A stretch of DNA of 64,000 bases from NCBI RefSeq assembly GCF_018873765.1, contig NC_057926.1:56433378-56497377 (forward strand). Reading direction: 5' to 3'. The notes under the pieces were generated by a model that saw only the letters and a list, made by a program, of their open reading frames with translations, was not told the origin of the DNA and made no database searches. The translations under genes and the position numbers were made by a program. Below are positions 3,772 to 43,600 of the stretch, one piece after another. Numbering within the stretch: position 1 is the first letter of the stretch; each line of letters opens with the position of its first letter. Source of the DNA: Telopea speciosissima (Eukaryota; Streptophyta; Magnoliopsida; Proteales; Proteaceae).

Positions 3772-3954
3772 ACCATCCAATCATTAATTGATTGTGATCA
3801 AATGTGAGGGAAACTAAGTATCAACAAAATGATAATGAAATGCATGATGGATTTTTAGGAACAAAATGAACTAAACTGGTTCAGTTATCCATTGAAGATT
3901 ACAGATTCTGAGATCAGATGGGCATATTTTAATTCAGTTATCCATTACATTCTT

Positions 3955-7596: not shown

Positions 7597-10500
7597 GAGG
7601 GTCTTCTTTTGTTACTAAAACTCTAGACATGCAACCGTGTTTGCGTCCAGTTCTTGAAGTGGAACAAGGATGCGTTTGGACATGTTGCTCACCTCAAAAC
7701 CAAGTTCTTTTCATCACATCTTTCTGAATCGGAGCGTGCTACCCCTGATTTCCAAACGCTCCAACAGGTCACTCAGAAATTGAATTGGATCTTTGATGCA
7801 GAAGAGTTGTTTTGGCTTCAAAAGTCCAGACATTTTTATATAAAAGACGATGACCGTAATACCAAATTCTATCATTCTGTTACTTGAACCAATCTCAGAA
7901 AGCGCTGCAACATCTCCATCAAGGACGACTTTGGCAACATGATTGCTGATCCAAAAGCTGTTGCACATATATTTGCAATCCATCTTCAGAATATATTTAC
8001 TTCTTCCAATCCGCTGGACGCTAGTTTTGTGAAGTGCCTTTTCCCACCTATGTTTCAAGCTGGTGAATCTGATTATCTCTGTACCGCCCCTTCATTGGAT
8101 GAGGTTAAAATGTAGTGTTTTCGCTCGGTCCCTTGAAAGCTCCAGGTATGGATGGGTTTGATGCTGGCTTCCTCCAAAAGTTCTGGGAACTGGTCCACCC
8201 TGATGTTTTCAGAATGGTTGAGGAATTTTTTATATCTGGCTTCATCCCCTCTGGTATGAATCATATCCTTATTTGCCTTATTCCTAAGATGGATAAATCT
8301 TCTTCTGTTAGTGATTTTAGGTCTATTAGCCTATGTAATATCTCTTATAACATTCTCTCTAAACTTATTGCTATTAGACTTAAAACGTGTCTTCAGTCGT
8401 TTATTTCACCTTTTCAGACTGCTTTTATTCCAAGTAGACAAATTGTTGATAACATTGTCTTAGCGTAGGAAATTTTTCACTTCTTTAAGTATACCGAAGG
8501 TAAAGAAGGGTTTGTAGCTATCAAAATAGATATGTCTAAGGCTTATGATAGGATTGAATGGAGTCTAATTACTTCTCTATTTAGATTTTTAGGATTTTGT
8601 GATAAATGGATCCACTTGGTATATTCTCTTATCTCCACTGCTTCTTTTTCTATTAAATTAAACGGGAGTCCTTTTGATTTTTTTCATGTTTCCAGGGGCC
8701 TTCGACAAGGATGCCCCCTTAGTCCTGTTCTATTCATTGTTGCTATGGAAGTCTTGTCTCGTCTGCTTTCTGCTTATCGGGATCTTGATTTGTTTCGTGG
8801 TGTTCGACTATCGTGTTCTGGCCCTGAAATCTCTCACCTTCTTTTTGCTGATGATATTTTCATATTTTGTCGGGCTAACCAGGAGGATTTGCTCTCCATC
8901 AAAGCTATTCTTGATCTCTTCTTTGATCTCTCTGGACAAGAGATTAATTATGCCAAGAGTGGGATACACTTCAGTAAAAACGTTCCTGTCGCTACCAGAT
9001 CTTTTTTATCCTCGGTAATTGGGATTAAGGAAATGTCTAGGGAATCTTTGTACTTGGGAACTAACCTGTTTCATGGGAAATCTAAATCTAGAGAGCTGGA
9101 GAGTTTGATTTCGCGTTTGCAAGGTAAACTGGCATCGTGGAAAACAAAATCGCTATCGTTTGCTAGGCGGGGTGTTCTTATTAAATTTGTGTTGGCCTCT
9201 TTCCCTGCTTTTCTGATGCAATGTTTTCGATTCCCTGCTCAAGTCTATCGTAAAATTGATTCGATCTGTCTTCAGTTTTGGTTGGGCAATTGTGGGGCCA
9301 GGAAAAAACCTTCTTTAATTTCTTGGGATAAGATGTGTAGACCTAAAGCTTCTGGGGGGTTGGGGTTTAGGAAGTCTGAACATCATAACCAGGATTTGCT
9401 TTTAAAACTGGGATGGCGGTTAATAACTGAACCAACTTCCTTATGGGCCAGGGTTTTAAAGGCCAAGTATTTTCCCAAGACCAATTTTTTTTATCCTCGA
9501 ACTAAAGGTAAGAAAGGCTCTTGGACCTGGAATAGCATTACACAAGTAACCCCAATTCTGAAGAGGTTAGTGGGTAGGCGTATTGGTAATGGTTGTTCTA
9601 CTTCTTTCTGGTATGATAAATGGATTCCTTCTTGTTCTTCTAATCGCGCAAGAGTCTGATTTCTAGGCCCCTCTCTAAGGAAATCTAAGTTACTGACTGT
9701 GAGCCACTTCATAAATGACACTAATTGGAATAACGATCTCATTAAAGACTGTCTCCCTCATTGTATTGCTCGTCAAATTCAATCTATTAAGCTTTCTAAT
9801 TCTAACGATCAATGGTACTGTCTTAAGCCCAAATCAGGTCAGTTCTCCACTAAAATTGCTGTAAGGCACTTAATTTCCTACTCTGCTGCAACATCTGATA
9901 ATTTTGTAGGTTGGTGGAACTTTTTTTGAAAACTTCCTATTCACCCTAAGTTTAAAGTTTTCTTTTGGCGTTTACTCAATGCAGGACTCCCTACCAAGGA
10001 TATTATATCAAAATGGAGGCCGATTGACTCGACCTGTGCTCTCTGTGGAACTGGTGTTGAATCTCTTTGGTACCTTTTCTTTTCTTGTGATTGGGTTAAA
10101 CGCATCTAGGCAGCGGGACCTTTGGGGCTGAGGCCTGATTGTCTGGGCTTTGATACTATCACTCTTTTCTGCCGGTTCTTCTATTTTTACTTTCGGTCTA
10201 AAAAAACTGTTTCAATATGGTTTTTTAGCATTTTTATTATAACTTGTTACTTTATTTGGACATGTAGAAACAAATTATTGGTTGACTCCTCACAACCTAA
10301 TCCTTCATGGATTATCCAAGTCGTCTCTCAATGGATTGTTGATCTCAAATTATATGACTTTGGCTGTCATTCTCAGACTGATTGGGTGCATGATATTGTA
10401 TTCCCGTTGAAGCCTTCGTTCTTTGTTTTACCTAGTTATGATTTTCCTATCTTAATCTGTGCAGGATTCAGTTCACCTGGACTGACTGAGGCCGGATGGG

Positions 10501-16552: not shown

Positions 16553-19500
16553 ATGGCAGAATCAAATGAGGGAAGTCCACCAAGGAAGAATCAGCAGAAA
16601 TTGTTTAACCGTGTAGATTCCCTTCACTTGGAGGCTGGAAAAGTCTCCGGCCAGCCGATCAAAAGCAACCAAAAGGTCTGGATGGATCGATGGATCAATC
16701 AATCACAATCTAGTATTAATTCCGTACATTAATTTTCAGTCTTAATTTCTTTGTTTGTTGTTAGTTTCTGCTTTTATATATTATTGTACAAATTAACATA
16801 TATATGTTTGAATTAATTGATGGGAATTGAATAATTAATGCAAAATGATGGACGACGAGAGCAGCAAGGGAGTTGGGGAACGACATTGAGCTTAGCATTC
16901 CAATGCATTGGAGTTGTGTATGGAGACGTCGGGACTTCTCCACTGTATACATATTCCACTGTGTTCGCAAACGGCATCGGTGACCCAAATGACTTAATTG
17001 GGGTATTGTCACTCATCATCTACACCCTCACACTTGTAACCTTGATCAAATATTGTTTCATTGTCTTATGGGCCAACGACAATGGTGATGGTAAGCTTCA
17101 TTTCGTTTCATTTCATTTCATTTCATTCATTCTTTTGTTGTTCATGCATGATGCATGCATGGGAGCAATATTCGTCAAGCAAGATCAGATGGAAGAAGAA
17201 ACATCTCAGACTAATAAACATTTAATTTCATATGGGGGTCGTGTAGGGGGAACGTTCGCAATTTATTCTAAGATATGCCGTCATGTTAAGGTGAGCTTAA
17301 TTCCAAATTATCAGAAAGAGGATGCAACGCTCTCCAACTACAGCGTAGAAGTCCCTTCCACGAATGTGAAGAGAGCTCAGAAGGTAAAAGAGACGATGGA
17401 GAACAGTCCAGCAATTCGTGTCATGCTCTTCATGTGTGCTATTGTTGGTACTTCCATGGTGATGGGAGATGGGGTTCTCACTCCAGCAATTTCAGGTTTG
17501 TCAAAATTAAATGGTACCCCCAATCAATTATTCTCTATTATATCTCTGGCAAAATTTTGTGAACTATCTTCCACTATTGAACAACTTTTGTTTTGTTTTG
17601 TTTTGTTTTTCTCTCCAGTGCTTTCTGCAGTGGGAGGAATCACAGTAGCAGTGCCAACACTTAGTCCAGGTACTCACTCGATCATCTTGCTTATAATTAT
17701 GACACTGTCAATTGTCTTCATAACTAATTCTGTCAATATTGTTGTTGATGATTTTGCAGGTGCCATCGTTGGAATTTCCATAGTGATCTTGATCCTTCTC
17801 TTTGTATTTCAACGATACGGAACCGACAAAGTTGGTTTCGCATTTGCCCCTCTCATCAGCCTATGGTTTCTATTCATTGCTGGCATCGGTCTCTACAACT
17901 TGATCAAGTATGATATTACTGTTTTACGTGCTTTCAATCCAGCGTACATCATTGATTATTTCAAAAGAAATGGCACCAATGGATATATGTCTCTTGGAGG
18001 GGTTGTTTTGTGCATCACAGGTAGTGAGTAAAACTTAATTAAAACCTCTTTTAATTCCCTCTGATCATTATTTCGCATGAAATCTAAATGTTACTAAAAC
18101 CTTTACCATCTCCATCTGCTGATATGAAACAGGAACGGAAGCAATGTTTGCTGACTTGGGTCACTTCAATATTCCAGCCATTCAAGTATGTACAATTCGA
18201 TCATAATTAAACTCCTCCTACCCAATTCAGATCACAAAATATCTTGCTAAAATTCAATTTCTTTGCAGATTAGTTTCGGCGGATTTGTGTATCCTGCATT
18301 AATATTGGCTTACAGTGGGCAAGCTGCATACCTAACCAAATACCCAAACACAGTCCAAACTAGTTTCTATTCCAGTATCCCTGGTAAGTGTATCGATCTT
18401 TGTTCTGCATTAGTAGTAGTCATGCAATAAAATGATGCATATATGGAATTGATGGCCCAATGCAATGCCTAGCTACATACATTATTACTTGTCTTTCATG
18501 TTTTTAATAACTTCTTAATTAATTAAGGATGTTTTTCTGTTTTTCCTTCAAATGATCGACGACGACACATACAGGTCCATTATACTGGCCACAATTTGTT
18601 ATAGCTATTATCGCGGCTGCTATTGCAAGCCAAGCTATGATATCTGGATCATTCTCAATCGTAGCTCAATCCCAAGCTCTTGGATGCTTCCCAAAGGTTA
18701 AGATCATTCACACTTCAAAGAAGTATGAAGGCCAGGTTTACATCCCTGAAGTTAACTATGCACTCATGCTCGGCACTGTCATTATCACAGCTGTCTTCCA
18801 GAATACAATAGCCATCAGTTTTGCATATGGTAATTAATGCTCCTTAATTAATTACAATTATGTATAACAAACATGGTAATTAATTGTATTGGTCTCTAAT
18901 TTTGATGCATTCCATGCATGCAGGTATTTGTGTGGTTACTGTCATGGTAATCACTACTACTTTGGTTAGCCTCATAATGCTTGTCATTTGGAAGATATCC
19001 ATTCTGTGGATCAGCCTCTTCTTCGTGATTTTCGCTTCAATAGAGTTAATATATCTATCCGCAACAATAACTAAGTTTGTACAAGGCGGATGGCTTCCAC
19101 TCGCGTTTGCTGCAGTTCTTGTTTCCATTATGTGGGTATGGCATTATGTTTACAAAGAGAAATACATGTTCGAGCTCGAAAACAAGGTCTCCAATGATTT
19201 TATAAGAGAAGTAGTGATGAACCCAAATATAAACAGGGTGCCCGGAATCGGACTTCTATATTCTGAGCTTGTTCAAGGCATCCCACCCATATTTCCTCAC
19301 TTCATTTCAAACATACCATCCATCCATTCAGTTCTAGTGTTTGTCTCTATAAAGCAAATCCCAATCCCTACAGTGGATATGGAGGAGCGTTTTCTATTCC
19401 GTCAGGTTGAACCACGAGAGTCCCGGATGTTCCGTTGTGTTGTTCGGTATGGCTATAAAGATGCCTTCAATCAACCAGAGGAGTTTGAACAACAGCTTGT

Positions 19501-19882
19501 CCAACGCTTGAAAGAATTCGTTCGTCATGAAAACTACATGCACAATGAGGAATTAATAGAACAGAACATCCTACCATTCAAACATCATCATACTCAATCA
19601 ACCAACTCTTCTGGCCGAATTGTCAGTACCCGATTGGTCAGCGGACAAATCGTTGAAGCCGAAGAAGGTGAGACACAATTCATTGATGAAGCAATGAAGA
19701 ATGGGGTTGTGTATCTCTTGGGCGAACCAGAAGTGAGGGCAAAGCCGAATTCCTCTTTCTTCAAAAAGATCATTGTCAATTACATCTATAGCTTCTTGAA
19801 GAAAAACTTTAGGCAAGGACAGGACATGATGTCCATTCCACGGACAAGGGTTCTCAAGGTCGGAATGATATATGAGATTTGA
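16553..19882 (+). CDS. HAK/KUP/KT-type potassium transporter, copy 1 (intact)
   Basis: Plasma-membrane K+ transporter of the plant HAK/KUP/KT family, which moves K+ by proton-coupled uptake. Nine exons: 16553-16675, 16865-17090, 17247-17495, 17619-17669, 17760-18020, 18133-18185, 18269-18383, 18575-18829, 18924-19882. All junctions are GT-AG and the phases join to 763 residues, the usual family length. The family signature [13 protein letters not shown] is at residues 57-69; about a dozen hydrophobic segments follow, then a long cytosolic C-terminal domain ending KVGMIYEI. The start was chosen from the MAE start shared with copies 2 and 3. Exon 3 ends with the donor after CCAGCAATTTCAG, matched to the acceptor before TGCTTTCTGC. 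The N-terminal VDSLHLEAG motif fits the HAK5-like cluster, but the subgroup is uncertain. This is one of three tandem copies plus a relic. Confidence 0.92.
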
Positions 19883-20204: not shown

Positions 20205-20390
20205 TCTAAGGGTGTCAATAAGAAAATTCCATAATAAAATAAGGTAACATATAAAAGAAGGAAAAAAGTCTGTTTGAACCAATAGGTTATCCTACACCGA
20301 GAGAGATTACTTATTTTTTCTTATTCATTTTTATCTCTTCTAAAAAATGGAAAAAAGGATATTTCTCTAAATGTACGATATGCAGAGAAG
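20205..20390. repeat. Isolated copy of the giant palindrome's outer end
   Basis: The sequence starting AACTCTAAGGGTGTCAAT and continuing through GTCTGTTTGAACCAATAGG matches the reverse complement of 15285-15473, the outer end of the giant inverted repeat, with indels. It looks like a truncated second copy of that element's end, in the orientation expected of a left end. Confidence 0.65.
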
Positions 20391-20394
20391 GTGG

Positions 20395-20460
20395 GCCTTA
20401 GTGCAACGGTAAGGTTGTTCCATTGAGACCAATTGGTCACAGGTTTGAGATATTCTTCTT
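20395..20460 (+). repeat. Partial Au-type SINE head
   Basis: GTGGGCCTTAGTGCAACGGT and following bases resemble the tRNA-related start of the Au SINE also seen at 48554. It is truncated and diverged. Confidence 0.35.
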
Positions 20461-20591
20461 TTTATCCACAAATTACAACCTTTTTGCAAAAAAAAATTTC
20501 CTTCCCCTTGAAACCCGAGCTTGACGCCTGCAACCACAGTCGATCTCTCTCATGAAAATAAGGTACCAGTTGAATAGGGAAAAAAAAACTA

Positions 20592-20785
20592 GAGCAAGTT
20601 ACATGCACCCCCCTGTAGTTTGAAATAATATCAAAACACTCCCTAGTTTCACTTCTTACGTGCCCCACTAGATTTGTGGATGGCTTACAAAAAAGTCCTT
20701 ACCGTCAAGTGTAAACCGTTAGTTGTAGTTAAACTTTGCAAAAGCCCTATTTTACCCTTCAATGGGGCAAAGGGGGGGTTGTCTT
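20592..20785. repeat. Left TIR of the Aux/IAA-WRKY Pack-MULE
   Basis: Pairs with about 28785-28974. The outer 80 bp are highly similar (TGTAGTTTGAAAYAATATCA shared); the inner part matches only in blocks. Confidence 0.8.
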
Positions 20786-20959
20786 TAACCTCATAATTTC
20801 TTAGCCATATACAAAACCAGAAACCAGCGGAGAAGGAATTCTATGTATGGGTTTCAAATATTCTCTTCTTCTTCTCTACAACTCTTATCATGCATCTTCA
20901 TAACCTTTTCATGCTTTCTAGTAGTATTTCTCTGAGATATCTTTGTTGTTAGAATTTTA

Positions 20960-21434
20960 ATGTCTACGCCCTTAGAACATGATTACATAGGCTTGTCAGA
21001 GTTTTCTTCTTCCATGGAAAACTTTGAGAAGATCTCATCTTCTTCCTCAACTTTGATCCACTCAACCCGGAACTGTGTAGGCTTGGGTTGCTTGGTCCTG
21101 AATTCCCTGAAAGGAAGTCTGGAGGTGGGATTTCTCTTCTCAAGACTCACGTTTCTAGGGCTAAAAGGGGTTTCTCCGATGCCATTGATGGCTCTGGGAA
21201 ATGGGGTTTCTCTGGGAGCTCTGGATCTGAGGTTGATTTGAGTAAAGGAGTTGTCTTGTTCTCTCTTAGAGGTGGGAGTAGTGGGAAGTCTCTCTCTATT
21301 TTGGAGAATACTACTCAACAGCCTAGTTGACTGCTACTGTACTGAAAAACGTTGTCCCAGCATCGCCAAAGTCAGAGAAGAATCCTCATATTTCTATTGC
21401 AAATGACCATGGAATGGCTCCTACTGCTAAGTAA
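20960..21434 (+). pseudogene. Captured Aux/IAA gene 5' fragment (IAA9-like exon 1)
   Basis: Pieces of one Aux/IAA protein are readable: MSTPLEHDYIGLSEFSSSME at the N-terminus, the EAR-type motif decayed to CRLGLLG, then PEFPERKSGGG, RAKRGFSDAIDG, and NVVPASPKSEKN and NDHGMAPTA near the exon end. Aux/IAA proteins repress auxin response factors through the EAR motif and are degraded through the domain II degron, which in the parent lies just downstream of this exon. Frameshifts lie near 21060 and after 21245, and a TGA sits at 21328-21330. The fragment ends exactly at a splice donor (AA before GTAAGA), where Aux/IAA exon 1 normally ends. A copia element inserted at that donor. Domains II-IV are absent, so it cannot act as a normal Aux/IAA. 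Confidence 0.8.
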
Positions 21435-21435
21435 G

Positions 21436-21956
21436 TGTTAGAATTTTAGTTCTAATAAAATTCCATATGGACATAATTAAATCCCTAAACCAGGCTAATT
21501 AGGGTTTTGGTCTAATAAAGTGGGGTCATTAAGTTATATTAGAAGTCTAATGTGGACTGGCTTAGTGTGGGCCAGATAGATTCCTATTGGGACTGTGATG
21601 AGTCAGACCCTATAGGGATTACTATATAAGGAGAGCTAGGTCCCCCCTCTACCCAACACAACTAATTATTCTCAATCACTATTGAGGAGTGCATTCTGGA
21701 AAGAGAGGGAGATATTTAGTGTTCATCGTCCCTGTGCATACAGTATTCCCATCAGGCCAGTTACTTTGGGAATAGAGGGGAAGCACCTAGATCTTTGTTC
21801 TTTATTTTCCGCTGCAATCATCATCACTATGGATGCGAAACAATGTCAGTGGTTCTATCCCTATTTTCTATTATTTATTTGATTGTGTTCTTGAACGCCC
21901 TATGGAGATCCTGGCTTTTGGGATTTTGTCCCTATTTTGTTCGATTCATTCTAACA
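21436..21956 (+). repeat. 5' LTR of the copia element
   Basis: 521 bp, TG...CA ends. A TATATAAGG promoter box is present near 21622; the 3' LTR has TATCTAAGG at the matching place. The small frames in it are repeated at 27924-28231 and are not genes. Confidence 0.92.
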
Positions 21957-21958
21957 TG

Positions 21959-21970
21959 TGGTATCAGAGC
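21959..21970 (+). promoter_or_regulatory. Primer-binding site (initiator Met tRNA)
   Basis: TGGTATCAGAGC, two bases after the 5' LTR, is the usual plant copia primer-binding site for priming minus-strand DNA synthesis. Confidence 0.9.
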
Positions 21971-23262
21971 CTCCATAGATCCGTTCTTGAACCTATATGG
22001 ATTCAAAATAATAGGACATAATAAGGGAATCGAAATTTTTTGATTCGAATCAAGGTTTTTAGGGTTTTTTTTAGTTTTCCAAAAAACTCGTACGGACACT
22101 AGCATTCTGCCGATTTTTTTTAGCGCGAAAATAGAATCTGATCACATGGGGGCATAGAGCTCGGAAAATCAGAAATTTTGCCTGAAGACCCGACCCATTA
22201 ACCCGGCTGTTGACCCTTGGGTTGACCCGAGCCCGGTTGGACCGGTTTACCTGAACCGGGGTTGAGCCAAATTGATTTGGTTTGACTTTTTGGACCGGTT
22301 TGATCGGTACAGTCAATCGAATTTGGACTTGAACTTTGACCGAGCTTTCTGGGGGCTACGAGACTCCGTTTGGGGTCCCATTTTTTGCTTTGTCTCTGTT
22401 TTTCTGTGCTCTACACAGTGGTGCCCTCTGTTTTGATCAGATATGCATATTTTAAATATTTTTGGTATTCTATTGATGCATGCCCTTTTATGTAATTTAT
22501 CGGTTTGTTCTATTGGGAACTGAACCAATTTCTGACTTGCTGGAATACCTACCTTGATGAATAGAATCGTTGGATTTTGTGTTAGTTTTAAGACATTAAA
22601 AACATATATGCATATTTTAAATATTTTTGGTATTCTTTTGATGCATGCCCTATTCTAAAATTTGTCGATTCGTTCCATTGGAAATCGAACTAATTTTCTG
22701 ACTTGCTGGAATACCTACTTTGATGAACAATACTGTTGGCATATTTGTGTTAATTTTGAGATAGTTAAGCCCCTTGTCATAAATTATAAAATAACACAAT
22801 TTGTTTAAGGATGTAAGTAATTTTGGAATATCCCAAGAGAGGGTTCCATGGACTCAACAGGATGCAGCCGCCAAAGCGACCTTCCTTGTTGAATTTGTGA
22901 AACATCGATCTCATACAGTTGTGGGATGTCCTTCAACTCTGATGTGTGGTCATACATCCAAAGGTGGTGATCATGTATTGGTACTTGAAGGGGTACATAT
23001 ACAGTATGCATGTGAATAGGCTGACCCTAGAATTCTGCACACCCAAAGGTGGTGGATTTTGAAAGTTGAGCTGTATTCTCATGGCCACTGGTATGTAGGG
23101 ATTTTTACAATTGCATATTGAGAATTCAGCCCAAAGGTGTTTTCACAATGATGTGTGTAAAATTCTCATTAGCTTATAAAATTTCGAGCTGTACTTGCAT
23201 CATGCTGATTATTGTACTGTTCATTGTTTAAATTTTCAGTCACCTTTTTTGTCAATAATAAC

Positions 23263-24084
23263 ATGGTCACTATTGAGATTCTTACTGGGTCAAATTTTAA
23301 GAAGTGGAAAGAGGACATTATGTTTGCCATGGAGATGGCAAATGTGCATACGTCCCTTGTTATAGATAAACCAATGGACCTAACAGCTGATAGTACTAAG
23401 GATGAAAATTTTGTGCATTCTGCATAGGAAAAGAGTAATCGCTTAGCGGTACTATCTATAAAGAGGTCGATACCAGAACACCTTAAGAGTGGTCTACCTG
23501 ATAAATGTACTGTCAGGGAATTGTTGGATGCAATTTCCAAGAGATGCCAAGTTTCATCGAAGGCTGAGATTGGGAGATTTCTGCAAGGGCTATTTAATAT
23601 GGAATATCATTGTTTTGGGGGTGTTAGGGATTATATTTTTTGGATGATTGACTATCAAACCAAAATCAAAGCCTTGAATATTGCTCTTCCTGATGCCTTG
23701 ATTGTTCATCAAGTACTTAATACCCTACCTTCTGATTTTGACATCATCAAAACTAGCTACTTTTCCCAAGATGGTGTCTGGAGTATTAATGACCTTATTT
23801 CTAGGGTTGTATCCAAGGAAGAGAAACTACTTGTTATTTCCAAATCCCATGAGAGTGAAAAGTCTAAAAACCATACTCATAAGTCTGCCAATAAAGAGTG
23901 CGATCGGATTAACAATTTGGGACCTAAGAAAGATTCTTTCAAGAAAGAGAGTGAACATTGTTCCTTTTGCAAGAAGAAGGGTCACATAAAGAAGGAATGC
24001 AACAAATACAAGACTTGGTTATCAAAACCCAGGCCATCAGGTAACGATTCTTTGGCTTTTGTTTGTGAATCCAATCTATCATAA
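23263..24084 (+). pseudogene. copia gag with zinc knuckle
   Basis: The frame opens with ATG at 23263 and encodes a UBN2-type Gag domain (LTGSNFKKWKEDI), then ends in a CCHC zinc knuckle, CSFCKKKGHIKKEC. One in-frame TAG at 23425-23427 interrupts it; the frame otherwise stays open to 24084. Gag packages the element RNA in virus-like particles. Confidence 0.85.
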
Positions 24085-26940
24085 GCCTCATCCAGTAGTT
24101 GGAGGCTAGACGGCGGGGCAACTAACTAAGTTGCTTTTACCATATAGGTATTCATAAACCGGAAGAAGCCAAATCAGGATGAATCAAGGCTTGTCATAGG
24201 GAACGATGGATATGATTGACGTAAAATTCGTGGGAGATATCATTTTATTGTTAGTTTCTAGTTTTAATTTGACTGTAAAGAATAATTTTTATGTACCATC
24301 CTTCAGGCGGAATTTAATTTCGATTTCAGTGTTGGACATTGGTAGTTACCATTTTGAAATAAAGAACAGTATGATAGATTTGTTTCAAATAAAGTTGGTT
24401 CCTGCATTACGTCCAATGGATTGTACAGACTGTGTTTATCTCCCAATGATATCTACGCCTTCCATAATGTTGAAAACGTTGTTTCCAAAAGACTCTTACC
24501 TAAATAACGGTCTTTCACATTGTGGCATAAGATGTTAGGTCATATTTCTAAGGCAAGAGTGGAAAGGCTGATAAAGTCTGACATCCTACCTACTCTCGAA
24601 AGTGATCTAGAAACTTATGTAGATTGATGTAAGGGAAAGATGACCAAGATAAAGAAGAAAACTGTAGTCTATAGTTCTGACCTGTTGGAGGTCATTCACA
24701 CTGACATCGGTGGTCCCTATTCAGCCACATTGTGTAGAAATTTTTTATTTCATCACTTTTAACAGACGACTACTCCCAATATGGCTATCTATTCTTAATT
24801 AAAGAAAAGTCTGAATCTCTTGACAAGTTCAAGATTTTTGGGACTGAAGTTGACAAACAGTTGGGGAAAGTTATTAAAATTATTAAATTCGATCGTGGGG
24901 GTGAGTATTATGGCAGACATGGCGATGCTGGATAGCTTAAGGGCCTATTTGCCAAATACTAAGAGGACTCTAGGATAGTTGGTCAGTTTACTATGCCAGG
25001 AAGTCCTGAGAAAAATGGTGTCGCCGAAAGGCATAACCGCACTGGTGAGGAGTATGATTAGTAAGATAAATTTTACCTAAGTTCTTATGAGAGAAAAGTT
25101 TTGAAAACTACTCCTTGTATCCTTAACCATGTAGTTACTAAACCCAGAAACCATCTTAGAGTTTGGGGGTGCCCTACAGAAGTAAAACTATATTATTCAA
25201 CTTTGAACAAGTTGGATCCTATGACTACTCGTTACTATTTTTAGCTACGCAGATCATTTGAAGGGATATAAATTTTATAATCCCTGCGGAGGCACTAGGA
25301 TTGTGGACTCAAAGACAGTGAAGTTTCTGGAATTTGATGTGGCCGAAAAGAATGATTGTTCTCAGACTGTTCAAGATAGTGACATGGTTGGTACATTAGT
25401 ACCTATTCTTCTACCTATTCAGACGGATGTGGGGCATACTATGCCATTGGTTACACCTGCTGGAGTTCCGGATTCTGATATTGATACGGTCCTTAACATT
25501 CATGTAGCACCTGATGAGATTCCTCTTAATCAGGATGCGGTTGAGAATCCTATCATTGATGTAGTTCCAGCTAAGATTCCTCAGATTCAGGGTGAGGCAG
25601 TGGTAGCACCATTACGGAAATCCACCAAAGAGAGAAATTCAGTTATACAATCTATCTATGAGGTATATATGGGAGAACATGACTACGACATAGGTTGTGT
25701 GGTTGATCCAGATACTTATTCGAGCGTTGTTTCTAGTCCTCAATTAGATTTGTGATTTGATGTAATGAGAGATGAGGTGAAATCGATGAAACATAATGAT
25801 GTTTGGGAGCTTGTTGAATTAAACTTGAGGGTCTTGTGGTGAATGGTTCAAATCATTTTGTGTGGACTCAAGAAGTCTATTTACGGTCTCAAACAAGCTT
25901 CCAGACAGTGGTATTTGAAGTTCGACAGTGTCGTGACTTCATTCGATTTTGTGGAAAATAAAGCGGATCAGTGTATATATCACAAGGTCAGTGGGAGCAA
26001 ATTCTGTATTCTCATATTTTATATGGATGACATCTTGCTTGCTAGCAGTGACCTAAGGATGTTGCATAAATGAAAGCAACTATTATCTAAGGAATTTGAC
26101 ATGAAGGACCTTGGTGAGGTTTCTTTTGTTCTTAGCATTGAGATCCATAGGGATCGTTCTCGCCGTTTACTAAGTTTTTCTCAGAGGGCTTACGTTAATC
26201 GTATTCAGGAGAGGTTCAGTATGCTAGATTGCAAACCTGGGAATGTTCCTATTCTCAAACTGAGCTTGACACAGTGCCCGAAAAATGAAGCTGAGAAGGA
26301 TGACATAATGAGGTGCCTTATGCTAGCACACTAGGTAGTATCATGTATGCTTAGGTCTGTACCAGACCGGATATTACCTTTGTGACGGGTCTTCTTGGCA
26401 GATATCAGTCAGATCCTGGTCTTAGCCACTGGGTTGCTGCCAAGAAAGTATTAAGGTACTTGAAGGGGACAAAAGATTATATGTAATACAAAGACACATT
26501 CCTGAACTCAAGCTAGTGGGTCATACAGATTCCGACCTTGCTAGCTGTGAGAATGATAGGAGATCCACATCTGGTTATGTTTTCCTGATGGCAGGAAGGG
26601 TAGTATTATGGAATAGTACAAAACAGACATTGGTAACTACATTGACTATACAAGTAAAGTTTGTAGCATGCCATGGGGTTGCTACTTAGGTTATTTGACT
26701 TAGGAATCTCATAAAGTAGTTGATCATTTTAGATTTTGTGGATAGATCCATCCAGATATATAATAATAACAGTTTTGCTGTGTTGTTTATAAATAACAAT
26801 AAAGAACTTAGAGGGTCTAAGGACATGAAGGTCAAGTGTTTGACCATAAAGGAGACAGTAAAGAAAGGTGGCATTGCAGTGGAGCATATTGGTACAGATG
26901 ATATGGTTATAGATTCCCTAACCTAAGGTCTTTGCCCTGA
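24085..26940 (+). pseudogene. copia pol remnant (integrase, RT, RNase H)
   Basis: Decayed integrase sequence spans about 24500-25250 (with a GSPEKNGVAERHN-like segment near 25000). A linker frame follows at 25258-25755. Reverse transcriptase then appears from 25850 with SIYGLKQASRQWYLKFD and the catalytic YMDD box (FYMDDILLASS). RNase H is at 26380-26930. The N-terminal part of the reverse transcriptase is missing: the sequence passes from a WELVEL-like motif at about 25805 directly to the region just before SIYGLKQAS, an apparent in-element deletion. Stops and frameshifts break every domain. Confidence 0.8.
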
Positions 26941-27666
26941 TGTTTTGAAAGACATGTCATAAGCATGGGTTTAGGTGCATCATGGGATGCAGTTGGTTAG
27001 TGAGAGTTGTTTTGCTCCATTATAAAATGAAGTCTATTTTCATCTGTAATTTTTACCGTGTGGTAAATCTTGGTTTATATGTATCAGTTGTCATTGCATG
27101 CAAAATTCTTTTGAACACTTGGGTGTTTCATTTATTGACATGATGCATATATATCTAGTTTTAAAGACTTAAGGAATGTGTTAACCTTAAGCAAGGCTGG
27201 GGCATTAAGTTATTAACCTAAAAGTATGTCTTGTAACACATAAAGTATAACTCGAGTTATTTCTGATGAGACATACAAATTCGTTAGAATCACAAAGTTT
27301 ATTTCTCTAGTGAGCCTGTGCCACTTAAAGAAGAAAAATTTTGGACTGATAAATGGATAATACATAAGGAATCACTACGTGAGTATTATCTTGTTGCCAC
27401 ATTACCACATTGCATCCATGTTAGTAGAGTTGAGGGCTCTCGTGATCATGGAAGGTTCTGTGTTGCTTGATCATAGATGCAGATACCGTCATGATTCGGT
27501 GTCTAAAACTCTATGGGATAGGATTGACTTTCTAATATGACCTCTAGACCAATTTATTTTAAAAATTATGCACATAAAATTTTCTTAAAGAGTTGTTAGC
27601 ATGTGATTTGTTTTGGTCAAAACTGTTTTTAAATCCTTTTAAAAATAAGGAATTTAATGTAAGTCC

Positions 27667-27677
27667 AAGTGGGAGAA
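27667..27677 (+). promoter_or_regulatory. Polypurine tract of the copia element
   Basis: AAGTGGGAGAA directly before the 3' LTR matches the typical plus-strand priming tract of plant copia elements. Confidence 0.8.
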
Positions 27678-28198
27678 TGTTAGAATTTTAGTTCTAATAA
27701 AATTCCATATGGACATAATTAAATCCCTAAATCAGGCTAATTAGGGTTTTGGTCTAATAAAGTGGGGTCATTAAGTTATATTAGAAGTCTAATGTGGACT
27801 GACTTAGTGTGGGCCAGATAGATTCCTATTGGGACTGTGATGAGTCAGACCCTATAGGGATTACTATCTAAGGAGAGCTAGGTCCCCCCTCTACCCAACA
27901 CAACTAATTATTCTCAATCACTATTGAGGAGTGCATTCTGGAAAGATAGGGAGATATTCAGTGTTCATCGTCCTTGCGCATACGGTATTCCCATTAGGCC
28001 AGTTACTTTGGGAATAGAGGGGAAGCACCTAGATCTTTGTTCTTTATTTTCCGCTGCAATCATCATCACTATGGATGCGAAACAAGGTCAGTGGTTCTAT
28101 CCCTATTTTCTATTATTTATTTGATTGTGTTCTTGAACGCCCTATGGAGATCCTGGCTTTTGGGATTTTGTCCCTATTCGGTTCGATTCATTCTAACA
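27678..28198 (+). repeat. 3' LTR of the copia element
   Basis: 521 bp, same ends as the 5' LTR, with about 12 single-base differences counted by eye. The segment before it (26941-27660) is untranslated element sequence without recognisable domains. Confidence 0.92.
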
Positions 28199-28260
28199 GT
28201 AAGAGCTATTCTCTCCAACTTACCTAGATGAGGGTGTTTACCAGATTCAACTTTGTTAAA

Positions 28261-28658
28261 TCAAGCGTTAAGCTTTGGCTTTGGCTTTGGCTTTGGATTT
28301 GGGGTTGTGGTTGAATGACCGTAATCGGAGTTCGAGTAGGAGTTGGGTGTGGATTTAAGTTTAGGGTTTGAGACTGATGCGACGCTGAGAAAGATGAATA
28401 AGAAAAGGAAGGAGAAGGTCCTCGACGAAATCGAGCATGACCGATTCAATTCAGAAGCGAAATTACCTTCTTGAACTTGGAGACTGTGAAATCTGTGATT
28501 TCTCTACAATCTAACTGGTTGTGCTTCTGATTCTGAGAGCTTTGATGGGAGAGTAGACGGATTAGATGTTCCATGCTCTGTAGTCCAGCCGAAGCAGCTT
28601 CTTGGATGGCTATCTGCTCATTCATCTTCGAATACACGAGGTAGTCAACCATCGCCAT
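28261..28658 (-). pseudogene. Captured WRKY group IId N-terminal fragment
   Basis: On the minus strand an ATG at 28658 opens a frame with [20 protein letters not shown], then [20 protein letters not shown], the plant zinc-cluster/HARF region that marks group IId WRKY factors (WRKY7/11/15/17 type, calmodulin-binding). The frame then hits TGA at 28446-28448 where the family has an arginine codon, a one-base change from CGA. After the stop the same frame continues with GHARFRRGPSPS, as in the family, and runs to a TGA near 28261. The WRKY DNA-binding domain is absent. It lies just inside the right TIR with its 5' UTR-like leader (28659-28740) next to the TIR. Confidence 0.82.
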
Positions 28659-28784
28659 TAGAGACGACGAAGATAACAGATTAAGACGAAGATGAAACAC
28701 AAGGAGAAGAAGACCTGACGGAGCTTAGGCCACCATAAATGTTTGGGATAGGGCTCTAGGTTTTAGATCGCCCTTTGGTGGAGA

Positions 28785-28974
28785 AGAATTAGAATAAGGG
28801 TAAAATGGGGATTTAAACTAGGTCACTGAACTAACAGGGTAAAACGGTCTTTTTACTTACAAAACTAACAGTTTACTAACACCGTGAACCATCAGGGGTT
28901 TTTTTTTATATAAGTGAAACTAAAGGGGTACTTTGATATTGTTTCAAACTACAGGGGGTGCATGTAATTTGCTC
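28785..28974. repeat. Right TIR of the Aux/IAA-WRKY Pack-MULE
   Basis: Reverse complement of about 20592-20785; the outermost 80 bp are the most conserved. Confidence 0.8.
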
Positions 28975-28983
28975 AAAAAACTA

Positions 28984-32204: not shown

Positions 32205-35200
32205 ATGGCAGAAGCAATGGAGGGAATTCCAAGAAGCGAGGATGGAGAAGGGAAGAAGAATCAGAAAGTGTTTAGCCGCGTAGATTCCCTTCACTTGGAG
32301 GCTGGAAGAGTTTCCAATCTGTCGAAAACTGACCACAAGGTCTCTCTCATAATCTAACTTTGGTTATTAATAATTTCACTCTCTCTCTCTCTCTCTCTCT
32401 CTCTGTCTGGCTTTGTTGTTAATTTCTGGTTTCTAGTCGGGATTTAATTTCTCATTAATTAATTAAGCTTGTTTGTTGTATCATATGATGGACCACGACG
32501 ATGGAGCAGAAAGCGAGTTGGGGAACGACATTGAGCTTAGCATTCCAATGCATTGGAGTTGTGTATGGAGACGTCGGCACATCTCCATTGTATGTGTATT
32601 CAAGCACCTTCCCAAACGGCATCAATAACACAGAGGACTTACTTGGTGTCTTGTCTCTCATCATTTACACTATCACACTTATAACCTTGCTTAAATATTG
32701 TTTTATTGTTTTATGGGCCAATGACAATGGTGATGGTAATTAATTAACCTTCATTTCCTTTCCTTTCATTTCATTTCATTCATTCCTTCAGTCCATTTGT
32801 TGAGGAACTCAATAATAACAATTAAATTTCATATGTTGTAGGGGGAACTTTTGCGGTTTATTCCAAGATATGTCGGCATGTTAAGGTGAGTTTAATTCCA
32901 AATTATCAGAAAGAGGATGCATCGCTATCCAACTATAGCGTACAAATCCCTTCCACGAATGCGAAAAGAGCTCAGAAAGTTAAAGAAACGATGGAGAACA
33001 GTCCAGCTATTCGTGTCATGCTCTTCATGTGTGCTATTGCTGGTACTTCCATGGTGATGGGAGATGGGGTTCTCACTCCAGCAATTTCAGGTTTGTCATT
33101 CACAAATATTGATGGCAGAATTTTGTGAACTATCCTCCACCACATTCACAAATATATTAAGATTATAACTTTATTTTTTGTTCCGTGTCTTATTCTCAAA
33201 AGTTATTTTAGTCATTGGATAAAAAACAAGGTTTTAAAATAAGTTGAAAGTAACTTATCATTATGTCATTTTCAGAATTTGTCATTTTTTATTACACTTA
33301 TATTAAATAACTTTCAAGAATAAGACAAGGTGTAAAAAGTAAGGTAACAACTTCTTAGTTCACCTACTTGGATATATATGTATGGACTGATGTTCTTTGT
33401 GCTGCAGCGCAACTTGTGCCGAGACATATGGTTGGCTGGGTATTCAGGGGAGTAGGGTGGTCATTTTGCCCACCCCCATGCGTCTGGGCACAGGCTGCGC
33501 CCCTGACACACAAAACATTTGACCAGAGAGAGAGAGAGAGCATTGATCACCTTTTCTATGTTGACTCCCAAAGATAATTTGACTAATTTTTTGTAGATAC
33601 TTGTAAAATTTCAACTTTTGTTTTTGTATTTCAGTGCTCTCTGCAGTGGGTGGAATCCAATTAGCAGTGCCAACACTTAGTCAAGGTATTCATCCTGCTT
33701 ATTATGACTGTTAATTGTCAGATCTTGATGATCCAAGTCAGATCTAAAATGATAAACAGTGTTGAAACTACATGAGTTAATATCTCCCCAAGTTAATCCT
33801 TATGAATTCATAGTATGAGTCAGCTGGTATATTATTGAATGAGATCTATTCTTCAAAACTAATTCAATTCATTATTCCTTTTCTATAATCAATGTATTCT
33901 TCAGCTAGAACTAATTCATTGTTCCTAATCTGTCAATCAATGTTGTTGATTCTCTAGGTGCTGTCGTTGGAATTTCAATAGCGATCTTGATCCTTCTCTT
34001 TGGATTTCAACGATACGGAACCGACATAGTTGGTTATTCATTTGCCCCTCTCATCAGCATATGGTTTCTTTTCATCGGTTGCATCGGTGTCTACAACTTG
34101 ATCAAGTATGATATTGCTGTTTTACGCGCTTTTTATCCAAAATACATCATTGATTATTTCAGAAGAAATGGCACCAATGGATTTATATCTCTTGGAGGTG
34201 TTATTTTGTGCATCACAGGTGATCAGTAAACCTAAAACCTCTCTTTTAATTAATCCCCTCTCATTGTTTCACATGAAATTAATTAAGTGTTTCCAACCAC
34301 CATCTCTGCTGATATGAAACAGGAACGGAAGCAATGTTTGCTGACTTGGGTCACTTCAATATTCCAGCCATTCAAGTATGTAGAGTGCTTAACTCAGGAT
34401 CCTACCTAACTAAACATCCCGTCCCAGATATCTTGCGAAAAATTCAATTTTTCATAACAATGTCATCGATCATCAACTTCAGTGGTTTAATTACATTTTT
34501 GCAGATTAGTTTCGGCGGATTTGTGTATCCTGCATTAATATTGGCTTACAGTGGGCAAGCTGCATACCTCACCAAATACCCAAATAATGTTTTAACTAGT
34601 TTCTATTCCAGTATTCCTGGTAATTAGTAGATATCATTGTTTGACAAGCATGGAATGTTTTTATTTTTATTTTTTTGGTTAAACAGAGGAAGCTGAAAGT
34701 TTTTTTTGTTTTTTTTTTTTCAAATGATCAATGACACAGGTCCATTATACTGGCCACAATTTGTTATAGCTGTTATTGCATCTGTTATTGCAAGCCAAGC
34801 TATGATATCTGGATCATTCTCAATCATAGCTCAATCCCAAAGTCTTGGATGCTTCCCAAGGGTTAAGGTGATTCACACTTCAAAGAAGTATGAAGGGCAG
34901 GTTTACATCCCTGAGGTTAACTATGCACTCATGATCGGCACTATCATTATCACAGCTGCATTCCAGAATACAATAGCCATCGGCAATGCATATGGTAATT
35001 AATTAAAGCACTAATTCATGCCCCATACTATAATCTTTTTTACATCTCTTTATATTTAATTGATTCTTAATTTGCTGATCTTTAGCAAAAAAAATTAAAA
35101 ATTATGGTCTATAACTTTGATGGATGCAGGCATTTGTGTGGTTACTGTGATGGTAATCACAACATGTTTGGTTAGCCTCATAATGCTTGTAATATGGAAG

Positions 35201-36082
35201 ATATCCATTCTGTGGATCAGCCTCTTCTTCGTGTTTTTCGCTTCAATAGAGCTAATATATCTATCCTCTACGATATCTAAGTTTATACAAGGCGGATGGC
35301 TTCCACTGGCGTTTGCTGCAGTTCTTGTGACCATTATGTGGATATGGCATTATGTTTACAAAGAGAGATACATGTTCGAGCTGGAAAACAAGGTCTCCAG
35401 TGATTTTATGAGAGATATAGCCACGAACCCAAACATAAACAGAGTTCCAGGAATCGGACTTCTATATTCTGAGCTTGTTCAAGGCATCCCACCCATATTT
35501 CCCCACTTCATTTCAAACATACCATCCATCCATTCAGTTCTAGTGTTTGTCTCTATAAAGCAAATCCCAATTCCTACAGTAGAAATGGAGGAACGTTTTC
35601 TATTCCGTCAGGTTGAGCCCCGAGAGTCCCGGATGTTCCGTTGTGTTTTTCGATATGGCTACAAGGATGCATTTGATAAACCAGAGGAGTTTGAGCAACA
35701 ACTTGTCAAACAATTGAAAGAATTTGTTCGTCATGAAAATTTTATGCACAACGAGGAATTAATAGAACAGAACATCCTTCCATTCAAACATCATGATCCT
35801 CAATCAACCAATTCTTCTAGCCGAATTGTCAGTACCCGATCCGGACAAACCCTTGGAGCAGAAGAAGATGAAACACAATTCATTGACGAAGCAATGGAGA
35901 ATGGGGTGGTGTATCTCTTGGGTGCACCAGAAGTAATGGCAAAACCGAATTCCTCTTGTTTCAAAAAGATCATTGTTAATTATGTCTATAACTTCTTGAA
36001 GAGGAACTTTAGGCAAGGACAGGATATGATGTCCATTCCACGGACAAGGGTTCTCAAGGTCGGAATGATATATGAGATTTGA
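32205..36082 (+). CDS. HAK/KUP/KT-type potassium transporter, copy 2 (intact)
   Basis: Same family and layout as copy 1. Exons: 32205-32339, 32510-32735, 32842-33090, 33635-33685, 33958-34218, 34323-34375, 34505-34619, 34740-34994, 35130-36082. Exons 2 to 8 have exactly the same lengths as in copy 1, and the joined frame gives 765 residues. The signature [13 protein letters not shown] is intact, and the C-terminus again ends KVGMIYEI. Intron 3 (33091-33634) is longer than in the sister copies because of an insertion that includes a GC-rich segment at about 33405-33520 and a (GA)n tract. The 5' and 3' flanks resemble those of copies 1 and 3, so the duplicated unit included the promoter. It differs from copy 1 by scattered substitutions, mostly at the N-terminus and in the C-terminal hydrophilic region. 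Confidence 0.92.
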
Positions 36083-37584: not shown

Positions 37585-39454
37585 TGTTAACGATATAGAA
37601 TCCAGGTCATCCACCTCTAGCTACCAGCTGGCCAATGAGATTACCATATCACCTAAAGAAGGGAAAGAAATCAATCAAGGCAATCACCTCAACAAAGAAA
37701 TCAATCAAGGCAATCATCTCAACGATTATAGAAAGGATATCAATTACAGCAACTGGAATATCAATCAAAAGGATAACAGCAAGGTTGTTCCCTTAGTTAG
37801 AGATCTTAATTTTGTAAAGAATATTTTAACATCCTTATATAAGGATTGTCATACAAGGAAGAAGCAATAAGAAGAATTCCTTGGTTGTGGACGTAGGTCA
37901 CTCTTGACTGAACCACATTAACTCTGCTTGTCTTTTCTCTCCTTCTCCTATTCTTCATCTCTCACTCTCACGTTACTTCATTAGTCAGTTTAATGTGGAA
38001 TTTGCTCATCCATTCTCACATTACTTTATTAGAGGTTTGACAGGCTGAGCTCGTTACTTCTAGACAATGGCTTTCATGGTTCCAAAACTGATACATCTCT
38101 ATTTACCTACCATAGTGGGGCCGACACCATCTTTATTCTCATCTACATTGATGACATAATCTTGACCGCTAGTAGTGATGCCCTACTTCATCAGTTCTTG
38201 ACCAAGATAAAAGGAACCTTTGCAGTCACTGATATGGGACAGTTACATTATTTTCTAGGTATTAGTGTCAAACCAACACATAATGGTTTATACCTTCACC
38301 AAGGGCGTTATATCACTGACTTACTTGAAAGAACTCAAATGATTGATTGCAAACCAGTTTCCACACCAATAACTCCAACCATGGTTCCCTCCAAGTTCAA
38401 CGGCAGCCCCATGGAGGATCCGACTTTGTATCGTAGCATAGTTGGGGCTTTACAGTACGCCACTTTGACCCGTCCTAAAATACAGTTTGTTGTCAACAAA
38501 ACCTGTCAGTACATGCAGAAACCGACCATCGATCATTGGGCTGCAGTAAAGCAGATCCTTCGTTATCTTAAAGGCACATTATCACATGGCATCCATTTTG
38601 ACAAATGGTCACCCCTTACTCTGGGTGCTTTCTCTGATGCTGAATGGGCCGGCTACCATGATGATCATAAATCTCAGGGAGGTTTTGCCATCTTTTTGGG
38701 CCAAAACCTTGTTTCCTGGAGCTCACGGAAGCAGGCTACTGTAGCACTGAGTCCGAATCCGTGCCTTAGCAAACACTGCTGCCGAACTCGCGTCCCTCTT
38801 AAAAGAATTGCTCATTTATCTTCCCAGTGCTCCTGTGCTATGGTGCGGCAATGTTGGTGCCACCTACCTCACTACCAATCCAGTATTTCATGCGCGCACC
38901 AAGCACATTGAAATAGACTTCCACTTTGTTCGGGATAAAGTCTCTAAGGGCCATTTGACAGTAAAATTCATATCTACCAAGGACCAACTTGCTGACATCT
39001 TCACCAAGGCTTTGTCTGCACAACGGTTTCGCCTACTTATGGTCAACCTCAAGGTGTTGCCACCTCCCTTGAGTTTGAGGGGGCGTGTTAACGATATAGA
39101 ATCCAGGTCATCCACCTCTAGCCACTAGCTAGCCAATGAGATTACCATATCACCTAAAGAAGGGAAAGAAATCAATCAAGGCAATCATCTCAATGATTAT
39201 AGAAAGGATATCAATTACAGCAATTGGAATATCAATCAAAAGGATAACAGCAAGGTTGTTCCCTTAGTTAGAGATCCTAATTTTGTAAAAAATATTTTAA
39301 CATTCTTATATAAAGATTGTCATACAAGGAAGAAGCAATAAGAAGAATTCCTTGGTTGTGGACGTAGGTCACTCTTGACTGAACCACATTAACTCTGTTT
39401 GTCTTTTCTCTCCTTCTCCTATTCTTCATCTCTCAGTCTCATGTTACTTCATTA
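37585..39454 (+). mobile_element. Internally deleted copia element inside a HAK relic
   Basis: Two LTRs starting TGTTAACGATATAG lie at 37585-37984 and 39086-39454. The first has an internal duplication of about 30 bp (AAGAAATCAATCAAGGCAAT twice). The second is preceded by a GAGTTTGAGGGGGCG polypurine tract. Flanks CCATC (37580-37584) and TCATC (39455-39459) may be a 5-bp duplication with one mismatch. Only about 1.1 kb of internal sequence remains: no primer-binding site, gag or integrase. Confidence 0.8.
38130..39065 (+). pseudogene. copia RT C-terminus and RNase H remnant
   Basis: The frame begins near LIYIDDIILTASSD, the YxDD catalytic box, and continues with GQLHYFLGI, LKGTLSHGIHF and the RNase H segment GYHDDHKSQGGFAIFLG. 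A frameshift near 38750 moves the end into another frame, which carries ARTKHIEIDFHFVRDKV and the usual QLADIFTKAL close. Everything upstream of the catalytic box is deleted. Confidence 0.85.
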
Positions 39455-40678: not shown

Positions 40679-43600
40679 ATGGCTGAAGCAGAGGAGGGAA
40701 TTCCAGCAGAGAAGGATGGACAAGGGAAGAATCAGAAAGTGTTTAGCCGTGTAGATTCCCTTCACTTGGAGGCTGGAAGAGTCTCCGGCCAGTCGATCAA
40801 AAGCAACCAAAAGGTCTCGATCGATCACAATCTATTATTCATATTTTATTCCCTGCATGTTTGTTGTTTAGTTTCTGGTTTCAAGTCGAGATTTCTCATT
40901 AATTAAGGGTGTTGTACGTTGTAATGCAAAATGATGGACGACGAGAGCAGCAAGCGAGTTGGGGAACAACATTGAGCTTAGCATTCCAGTGCATTGGAAT
41001 TGTGTATGGAGACGTTGGCACATCTCCACTGTATACATTTTCCAGCGTGTTCCCAAACGGCATCACTGACACAAATGACTTAATTGGTGTATTGTCACTC
41101 ATCATTTACACCCTCACACTTATAACCTTGATCAAATATTGTTTTATTGTCTTATGGGCCAATGACAATGGTGATGGTAAGATTCATTCATTCTGTTTCA
41201 TTTCATTCATTCTTTTGTTCATGCATGCATTGGAGCAATATTCAAGCAAGAGCAGAAGAAGCATTCAAACTAATAAACATTTAATTTCATATGGGGTCGT
41301 GTAGGGGGAACATTCGCAATTTATTCCAAGATATGCCGTCACGTTAAGGTGAGCTTAATTCCAAATTATCAGAAAGAGGATGCATCGCTATCCAACTATA
41401 GCTAGAAGTCCCTTCCAGGAATGTGAAGAGAGCTCAGAAAGTAAAAGAGACGATGGAGAAAAGTCCAGCAATTCGTACCCTGCTGTTCATGTGTGCTATT
41501 GTTGGTACTTCCATGGTGATGGGAGATGGGGTTCTCACTCCAGCAATTTCAGGTTTGTACATTATTGACTAGTTAATTAAAAGATGGAGGGACATTAATA
41601 TCTTTAGCTGTCAAAGCTAATTAAAGATAACTTGTAAAAATTCAACTTTTTTTGGATTTTGTATTTTGTTTTTCAGTGCTTTCTGCAGTGGGTGGTATTC
41701 AGATAGCAGTGCCAACACTTAGTCAAGGTACTCACTCGATCATCTTGCTTATAATTATGACACTGTCAATTGTTAGAGATCTTGATCCAAAAAGTCCAAT
41801 CTGAATTCAATTCTATTTTACGATCTGGAAATGATAATCTTCATAAACAAACAGTATATATTGGCTGGAATATTAATATTCGATGGATGGTCTATTATTC
41901 TTCGATCATAACTAATTCATTAATTACTTACTACTATTCTGTCAATATTGTACGTTGTTGATGATTTTGCAGGTGCCATCGTTGGAATTTCCATAGTGAT
42001 CTTGATCCTTCTCTTTGTATTTCAACGATACGGAACCGACAAAGTTGGTATTGCATTTGCTCCTCTCATCAGCCTATGGTTTCTATTCATTGCTGGCATC
42101 GGTCTCTACAACTTGATCAAGTATGATATTACTGTTCTACGTGCTTTCAATCCAGGATACATCGTTGATTATTTCAAAAGAAATGGCACCAATGGATATA
42201 TATCTCTTGGAGGGGTTGTTTTGTGTATCACAGGTAGTGAGTAAAACTTAATTCAAAACCTCTTTTAATTCCCTCAGATCATTATTTCATATGAAATTAA
42301 AATGTTACTGAAACTACCATCTCTGCTGATATGAAACAGGAACGGAAGCAATGTTTGCTGACTTGGGTCACTTCAATATTCCAGCCATTCAAGTATGTAC
42401 AATTCATAATTAAACTCCTCCTACCCAATTTAGATCACAAAATATCTTGCTAAAATTCAATTTTCAGAACAGCAATGTCATCAATTTCAGTTGTTTATTT
42501 ACTTTTCTGCATGCAGATTAGTTTCGGCGGATTTGTGTATCCTGCATTACTATTGGCTTATAGTGGGCAAACTGCATACCTCACCAAATACCCACTAAAG
42601 GTCTCAACTAGTTTCTATTCCTCTATCCCTGGTAAGTAGCTAGTGTACCTTAATTTGTTCAGTAGTCATGGCCGGATTCTTTAAATGATGCATTGGAATT
42701 GATTGCCTAGATCATGATCAATGCATACACTCTATGAGAAGTCTTTCATGTTTTTTAACTTCCTAGCTAATTAATTAAGGATATGTTTTTCTGTTTTTCC
42801 TTCAAATGATCGACGACGACACATACAGGTCCATTATACTGGCCACAATTTGTTATAGCTATTATGGCGGCTGTTATTGCAAGCCAAGCTATGATATCTG
42901 GATCATTCTCAATCATAGCTCAATCCCAAGTTCTTGGATGCTTCCCAAGGGTTAAGGTGGTTCACACTTCAAAGAAGTATGAAGGCCAGGTATACATCCC
43001 TGAGGTTAACTATGCACTCATGATCGGAACTGTCATTATCATAGCTGTCTTCCAGAATACAATAGCCATCGGTTTTGCATATGGTAATTAATTAATGCTC
43101 CTTAATTACAATTATGTATAACATGGTAATTAATTAATTGGTCTGTAACTTTGATGCAATGCATATATGCAGGTATTTGTGTGGTTACTGTGATGCTAAT
43201 CACAACAACTTTGGTTAGCCTCATAATGCTTGTCATTTGGAAGATATCAATTCTCTGGATCAGCCTCTTCTTCGTGATTTTCGCTTCAATAGAGTTAATA
43301 TATCTATCCTCAACGGTAACTAAGTTTGTACAAGGCGGATGGCTTCTACTTGTGTTTGCTGCAGTTCTTGTTTCCATTATGTGGGTATGGCATTATGTTT
43401 ACAAAGAGAGATACATGTTCGAGCTGGAAAACAAGGTCTCTAATGATTTTATAAGAGAAGTAGTCAAGAACCCAAAAATAAACAGGGTGCCCGGAATCGG
43501 ATTTCTATATTCTGAGCTTGTTCAAGGCATCCCACCCATATTTCCTCACTTCATTTCAAACATACCATCCATCCATTCAGTTCTAGTGTTTGTCTCTATA

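Follow-up and report, generated by a model that had tools for sequence, protein, structure and literature searches.

A chimeric Pack-MULE in Telopea speciosissima carrying the captured 5′ ends of an Aux/IAA and a WRKY group IId gene, and relatives that hint at a probable stepwise assembly

The stretch of Telopea speciosissima DNA analyzed here (the window; 64,000 nucleotides of contig NC_057926.1, corresponding to C11:56433378-56497377 of the 823-Mb plant assembly that also served as the genome searched, with C standing for contig) contains at positions 20592-28974 a non-autonomous Mutator-like element (MULE) of the Pack-MULE type, in which the captured fronts of an Aux/IAA gene and a WRKY group IId gene face each other. 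A comparison with the donor genes and with related elements makes it quite probable that the WRKY fragment was captured before the Aux/IAA fragment, which was added later, probably by template switching, that the chimera has transposed at least once, and that each copy was subsequently split by a long terminal repeat (LTR) retrotransposon and decayed neutrally.

The element is flanked by a 9-bp target-site duplication, AAAAAACTA, which is identical at 20583-20591 and 28975-28983; target-site duplications of MULEs range from 9 to 11 bp. Among 2,000,000 random pairs of 9-mers taken from the window, 53 were identical; when both 9-mers contained at least eight A or T, identical pairs made up a fraction of 8.5e-4. 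The terminal inverted repeats (TIRs), located at 20592-20654 on the plus strand (the best-matching part of the left end) and at 28912-28974 on the minus strand, are identical in 56 of 64 alignment columns (E 4e-14 against the window), and short, weaker similarities of the left TIR continue further inward. A scan of the window with the TIR motif recovered only the element's own two ends, a result that 20 of 100 shuffles equalled, so that the motif alone carries little weight. Perfect 9-bp duplications and inverted ends had also been the basis on which a previous sequence-only reading of this DNA recognized a Mutator-like element, and that assignment holds.

The left TIR is followed by sub-terminal sequence of the element itself (20655-20840, plus strand), which closes in GGAATT, and then by captured Aux/IAA sequence at 20840-21435 (plus strand), of which the remainder is found at 28204-28228 (plus strand) beyond an inserted copia retrotransposon; the donor gene is continuous across 21435/28204. 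This cargo consists of approximately 115 bp of leader, exon 1 with its ATG at 20960, and approximately 30 bp of intron 1, the edge of which was placed from the reading frame. A join at 28229-28232, which is also present in a second copy on C2 that lacks the copia, leads to the captured WRKY fragment (28233-28746, minus strand), comprising the leader and a part of exon 1, with the donor ATG corresponding to 28652 and the inner end lying within donor exon 1. The element's own right sub-terminal sequence, which starts with GATAGGG (28747-28911, minus strand), completes the structure, and after removal of the copia and one copy of its target duplication the element measures 1615 bp. As the sequence-only reading had described, the fragments point inward, Aux/IAA being in sense orientation on the plus strand and WRKY on the minus strand, each with its leader toward a TIR. 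Capture by Pack-MULEs is reportedly biased to the 5′ ends of genes.

The parental loci, for which a search of the same genome had been proposed, were found for both fragments on contigs other than that of the window. The Aux/IAA cargo (11 of 11 candidates scored; 14 matches, self included) is 86% identical over 659 columns to C8:18884673-18885290, and it also matches the C2 copy (87%), a related C3 gene (73%) and shorter stretches of C11, C7 and C2. Of the 15 matches to the WRKY cargo (self included; 14 of 14 candidates scored), C5:39724061-39724580 is 88% identical over 520 columns and the C2 copy 91%. Since the broken fragments in the window gave no AUX_IAA or WRKY match in Pfam, they were identified by way of the donor genes, which were assigned to families with the curated Pfam cut-offs. 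The C8 locus is an Aux/IAA gene with open exons, three of which match AUX_IAA at profile positions 1-42, 73-152 and 150-199 of 222, the first of them with a score of 19.6 bits that is below the cut-off of 22.7; the domains of Aux/IAA proteins are named I to IV. The C5 donor is a group IId WRKY gene with RTGHARFRRGP in exon 1, followed by an exon with WRKYGQK and by the remainder of the WRKY domain (Pfam WRKY, 8e-15; Plant_zn_clust, 21.3 bits and below its cut-off of 23.5), and the HARF motif RTGHARFRR[A/G]P is described as a mark of this group in passages of two publications (PMC5980082, PMC7862462). The element's ends do not flank either donor: when its end regions were compared with the two 9-kb donor loci, locus L027 gave no match and locus L047 only two short ones, of 19 bp with E 0.04 and of 27 bp with E 0.001, neither of them near the captured part.

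Further fragments resembling Aux/IAA exon 1 occur at C11:2.33 Mb (L049 2403-2866), at four places on C7 (61.24-61.38 Mb) and at two on C2 (53.00 Mb). The C11 fragment includes donor sequence upstream of that captured in the window, a sign that it may have been copied independently. No inverted repeat flanks these fragments in L049-L052, the one pair detected in L049 not being placed around the fragment, and they were not counted as members of the family.

The copia LTR retrotransposon that separates the two fragments (21436-28198, plus strand, 6763 bp) had been left unmentioned in the sequence-only reading and makes up 6.76 of the 8.38 kb of the element span. It is bordered by the 5-bp target duplication GTAAG (21431-21435 and 28199-28203) and has LTRs of the TG..CA type, each 521 bp long (21436-21956 and 27678-28198), which differ at 12 positions. 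Its coding frames are broken, with a copia-type reverse transcriptase in two pieces (Pfam RVT_2 at 25843-26070 and 26074-26331) and a Retrotran_gag_2 match below its cut-off. The copia is younger than the element that hosts it.

The same whole chimera is present at C2:52915421-52922001 and is 88% identical to the window copy. The flanks of the window copy (2 kb on each side) do not match those of the C2 copy (0.9 and 2.4 kb), and the occurrence of the whole chimera in unrelated surroundings indicates that it moved as a unit. The C2 copy is uninterrupted at the position of the window's copia (21436), where it preserves the empty site, and contains an LTR element of its own of 4942 bp with the target duplication CAAAT and LTRs differing at 7 of 182 positions; the chimera therefore predates either insert. 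The two inserts have no blastn similarity to each other. In element coordinates they are located 31 bp apart (window 21404 and 21435), which may be due to chance. The 9-bp target duplication of the C2 copy is weak, as it lies in a TTA repeat. Among all matches of both cargo searches, the two fragments occurred together only in the window and on C2.

Additional copies of the element ends, another subject proposed for follow-up, are numerous, with at least 41 genome matches, self included, to the left-end query 20592-20960 (40 of 330 candidates scored). Both ends could be delimited in eight members (window, C2, C1a, C4, C1b, C8, C10 and C11b), of which six have target-site duplications identical at 9 of 9 positions and two at 8 of 9. 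The C10 and C8 relatives have the left 250 bp, including the stretch closing in GGAATT, and the right edge in common with the window element and carry a different cargo, here termed X, and the first 38 bp of the right sub-terminal sequence are common to the C10, C8 and C11b elements. The interior of the family seems to serve as a cargo slot between fixed edges, GGAATT on the left and GATAGGG on the right. Five elements, C1a (C1:82.60 Mb), C1b (C1:79.56 Mb), C4, C9 and C11b (C11:9.55 Mb), contain the WRKY fragment, gave no match to the Aux/IAA cargo, and read GGAATT directly followed by AGGGTG where the chimera holds the Aux/IAA piece. A genome scan with this 22-base join, allowing up to three mismatches, produced 18 hits, namely four exact ones (two on C1, one each on C4 and C9), the C11b join at C11:9549856 with three mismatches that are all upstream of GGAATT, and 13 others with three mismatches, which were taken as chance because a control scan with the reversed join gave 8 hits. 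In C11b most of the WRKY cargo is gone and 39 bp are kept.

These relatives allow an order of events to be proposed. A WRKY group IId 5′ fragment would have been captured first. An Aux/IAA 5′ fragment would then have entered at the point where the left edge already met the WRKY fragment, probably during repair of a break in the element that involved template switching among the element, the Aux/IAA gene and sister elements. The finished chimera transposed at least once, as its copies on C11 and C2 indicate, and a different LTR retrotransposon later split each copy; the element would be decaying neutrally, with no protein made from either gene. Chimeras and WRKY-only elements have an identical inner WRKY breakpoint. 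Of 214 comparable WRKY columns (gaps in C1b allowed), 7 show in all of these elements a single base other than the donor's; the number increases to 9 if the bases may differ, C1b being gapped at 6 of the 9, and C11b with its short remnant was left out of these counts. The common breakpoint and columns make a single WRKY capture behind both kinds of element likely. Changes common to both chimeras were found at 25 of 513 WRKY positions compared to 17 of 599 Aux/IAA positions, which is the direction expected if the WRKY fragment is older. In addition, the Aux/IAA cargo of both copies contains a patch (21046-21068 in the window, plus strand) that is absent from the Aux/IAA donor and matches cargo X of the C10 element, with 22 of 23 aligned positions identical and an exact run of 15 nt in the window copy, and an exact run of 24 nt in the C2 copy. 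The longest run in 200 comparisons of the C2 cargo with shuffled C10 cargo was 11, and that between donor and C10 cargo was 9. Such a patch would be the expected trace of template switching between sister elements and argues in favor of switching.

Several observations weigh against this order. The excess of shared changes in WRKY is only suggestive (Fisher p 0.08), and some of the columns counted as shared changes may represent changes in the donor. The tree of the WRKY tail is star-like without a supported fork and does not resolve whether the elements without Aux/IAA branched first; within it, the C2 copy lies at a distance of 0.055 from the WRKY-only C9 element and of 0.108 from the window copy, and just one column is exclusive to the two chimeras. 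Four of the five WRKY-only elements form one lineage, and Aux/IAA may have been lost in two lineages. Around the 3′ breakpoint TGGAATT is found in both donor and acceptor, yet the chimeras have TAGATG (window) or TGGATG (C2), which is no clean preservation of the microhomology; in the 9-kb donor locus TGGAATT has 7 occurrences, both strands counted. Regarding mobility, the five cargo open reading frames (ORFs) scanned with Pfam had no MULE match, in line with a Pack-MULE devoid of its own transposase, and a MURA/MULE-type transposase would presumably have moved the element; when the scored matches to PF10551 (at least 150; 150 of 828 candidates scored) and to the left end were compared by eye, without any further search, no close pair and no autonomous partner with the TIR of the window element were identified among the matches listed.

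The star-like tree and the proximity of the C2 copy to C9 would suit an origin of the chimera in one event with the WRKY-only elements as later deletion derivatives that lost Aux/IAA, and the reduced WRKY cargo of C11b indicates that deletions do happen in this family. We nevertheless consider this origin rather unlikely, since two lineages (C1a/C4/C9/C1b and C11b) must each have lost Aux/IAA at its edges, both now reading GGAATTAGGG, and a simple repeat-mediated deletion would not yield this sequence from the right edge of the chimera, which is GGATGAGGG in C2 or AGATGAGGG in the window. A reading of the fragments as 5′ exons belonging to real neighboring genes, or as part of a segmental duplication, is refuted for practical purposes by the donors on other contigs, the target-site duplications, the unrelated flanks of the C2 copy and the relatives that have these ends in common but not the cargo. 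The findings that would have spoken against the sequence-only reading, missing Aux/IAA and WRKY IId matches or fragments belonging to intact neighboring genes instead of a TIR-bounded unit, were not obtained, and its view of the element as a chimeric Pack-MULE that captured two 5′ ends stands. Compared with these alternatives, stepwise capture is the better account, and we lean somewhat toward viewing the family as a before-and-after series of assembly, with the slot holding other sequence, then WRKY, then Aux/IAA at the existing join together with a patch copied from a sister element; repeated template switching in the course of gap repair would produce a series of this kind.

The state of the cargo also bears on function. 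A frameshift interrupts the Aux/IAA fragment about 30 codons in, and the WRKY fragment has one in-frame stop ahead of the HARF motif. Differences from the donors, which affect 6-11% of aligned sites, are distributed evenly over the three codon positions (51/595, 48/594 and 52/589; chi-square p 0.90, both copies and both fragments pooled and changes common to both copies counted twice), in contrast to the comparison of the Aux/IAA donor with its paralog (16/170, 6/170 and 30/169; p 8e-5). The broken frames and the even differences suggest that no protein has been kept. Kimura distances between the window and C2 copies are 0.096 for Aux/IAA, 0.092 for WRKY, 0.126 for the left end and 0.165 for the right end, and the Jukes-Cantor distance between the copia LTRs is 0.023; at the rice substitution rate of 1.3e-8 per site per year, which is not this plant's own, these values correspond to about 3.6 million years for the cargo and about 0.9 million years for the copia LTRs. 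The convergent or antisense effect on the donors that the sequence-only reading had proposed finds no support in this analysis. A putative regulatory locus, at which TIR-driven convergent transcripts or small RNAs would silence both donor genes, could in principle draw on the exact donor 21-mers that are retained (91 of 601 in Aux/IAA and 72 of 494 in WRKY), and TIR promoters and Pack-MULE small RNAs are mentioned in parts of the literature (PMC3310237, PMC8277862). However, the cargo of both copies is interrupted by LTR elements (6.76 kb in the window and 4.94 kb on C2), the drift is even over all codon positions, and only two chimeric copies were present among the matches, which makes such a role improbable.

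The element starts 710 bp beyond the end of the first of several tandem K+ transporter genes (16835-19882, 35099-36082 and 40903-44161; K_trans and K_trans_C in the three C-terminal ORFs scanned), and a sequence just to its left (20388-20470) resembles, by eye, a tRNA-derived short interspersed element. The window further contains an ORF for a reverse transcriptase like that of long interspersed elements (RVT_1, 8109-9659), a second copia remnant (RVT_2, 38033-39128) and two tRNA genes, at 3083-3157 (plus strand) and 3700-3772 (minus strand), one being tRNA-Ile(AAT) and the other having an ambiguous anticodon.

Pack-MULEs with several gene fragments are already known. In rice, elements with fragments from several loci are described as common (PMC12030055), and the window element resembles them in its non-autonomous MULE ends, target-site duplication, fragments of unlinked host genes and pseudogene-like decay. 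What sets it apart is that the slot is found in three states, holding X, only WRKY, or both Aux/IAA and WRKY, from which an order of assembly can be inferred. For animal Pack-TIRs, one study describes captured fillers within a TIR element, marks of microhomology or template switching and later transposition, proposes gap-filling and FoSTeST models, and terms the bearing of either on plant Pack-MULEs worth exploring (PMC8277862); here, by comparison, the element is from a plant, its two fillers come from donors on other contigs, and it carries a sister-element patch. Tgm-Express1, a CACTA element of soybean, likewise combines fragments of host genes, five in number, within a single DNA transposon; it belongs to another superfamily and is reported to be transcribed and spliced (PMC1947982), whereas the window element is known from its sequence alone. 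Among the papers listed from the open-licence literature, no title or abstract opening concerned this Aux/IAA-WRKY element, from which we claim no absence from print, and the top-ranked papers on stepwise capture did not mention Pack-MULEs. Nothing in our analysis points to an effect on the Aux/IAA or WRKY regulator genes themselves. The useful part of this family is its preserved intermediates: with the same slot available with and without one acquisition, and with both donors present in the genome, the breakpoints can be read base by base.

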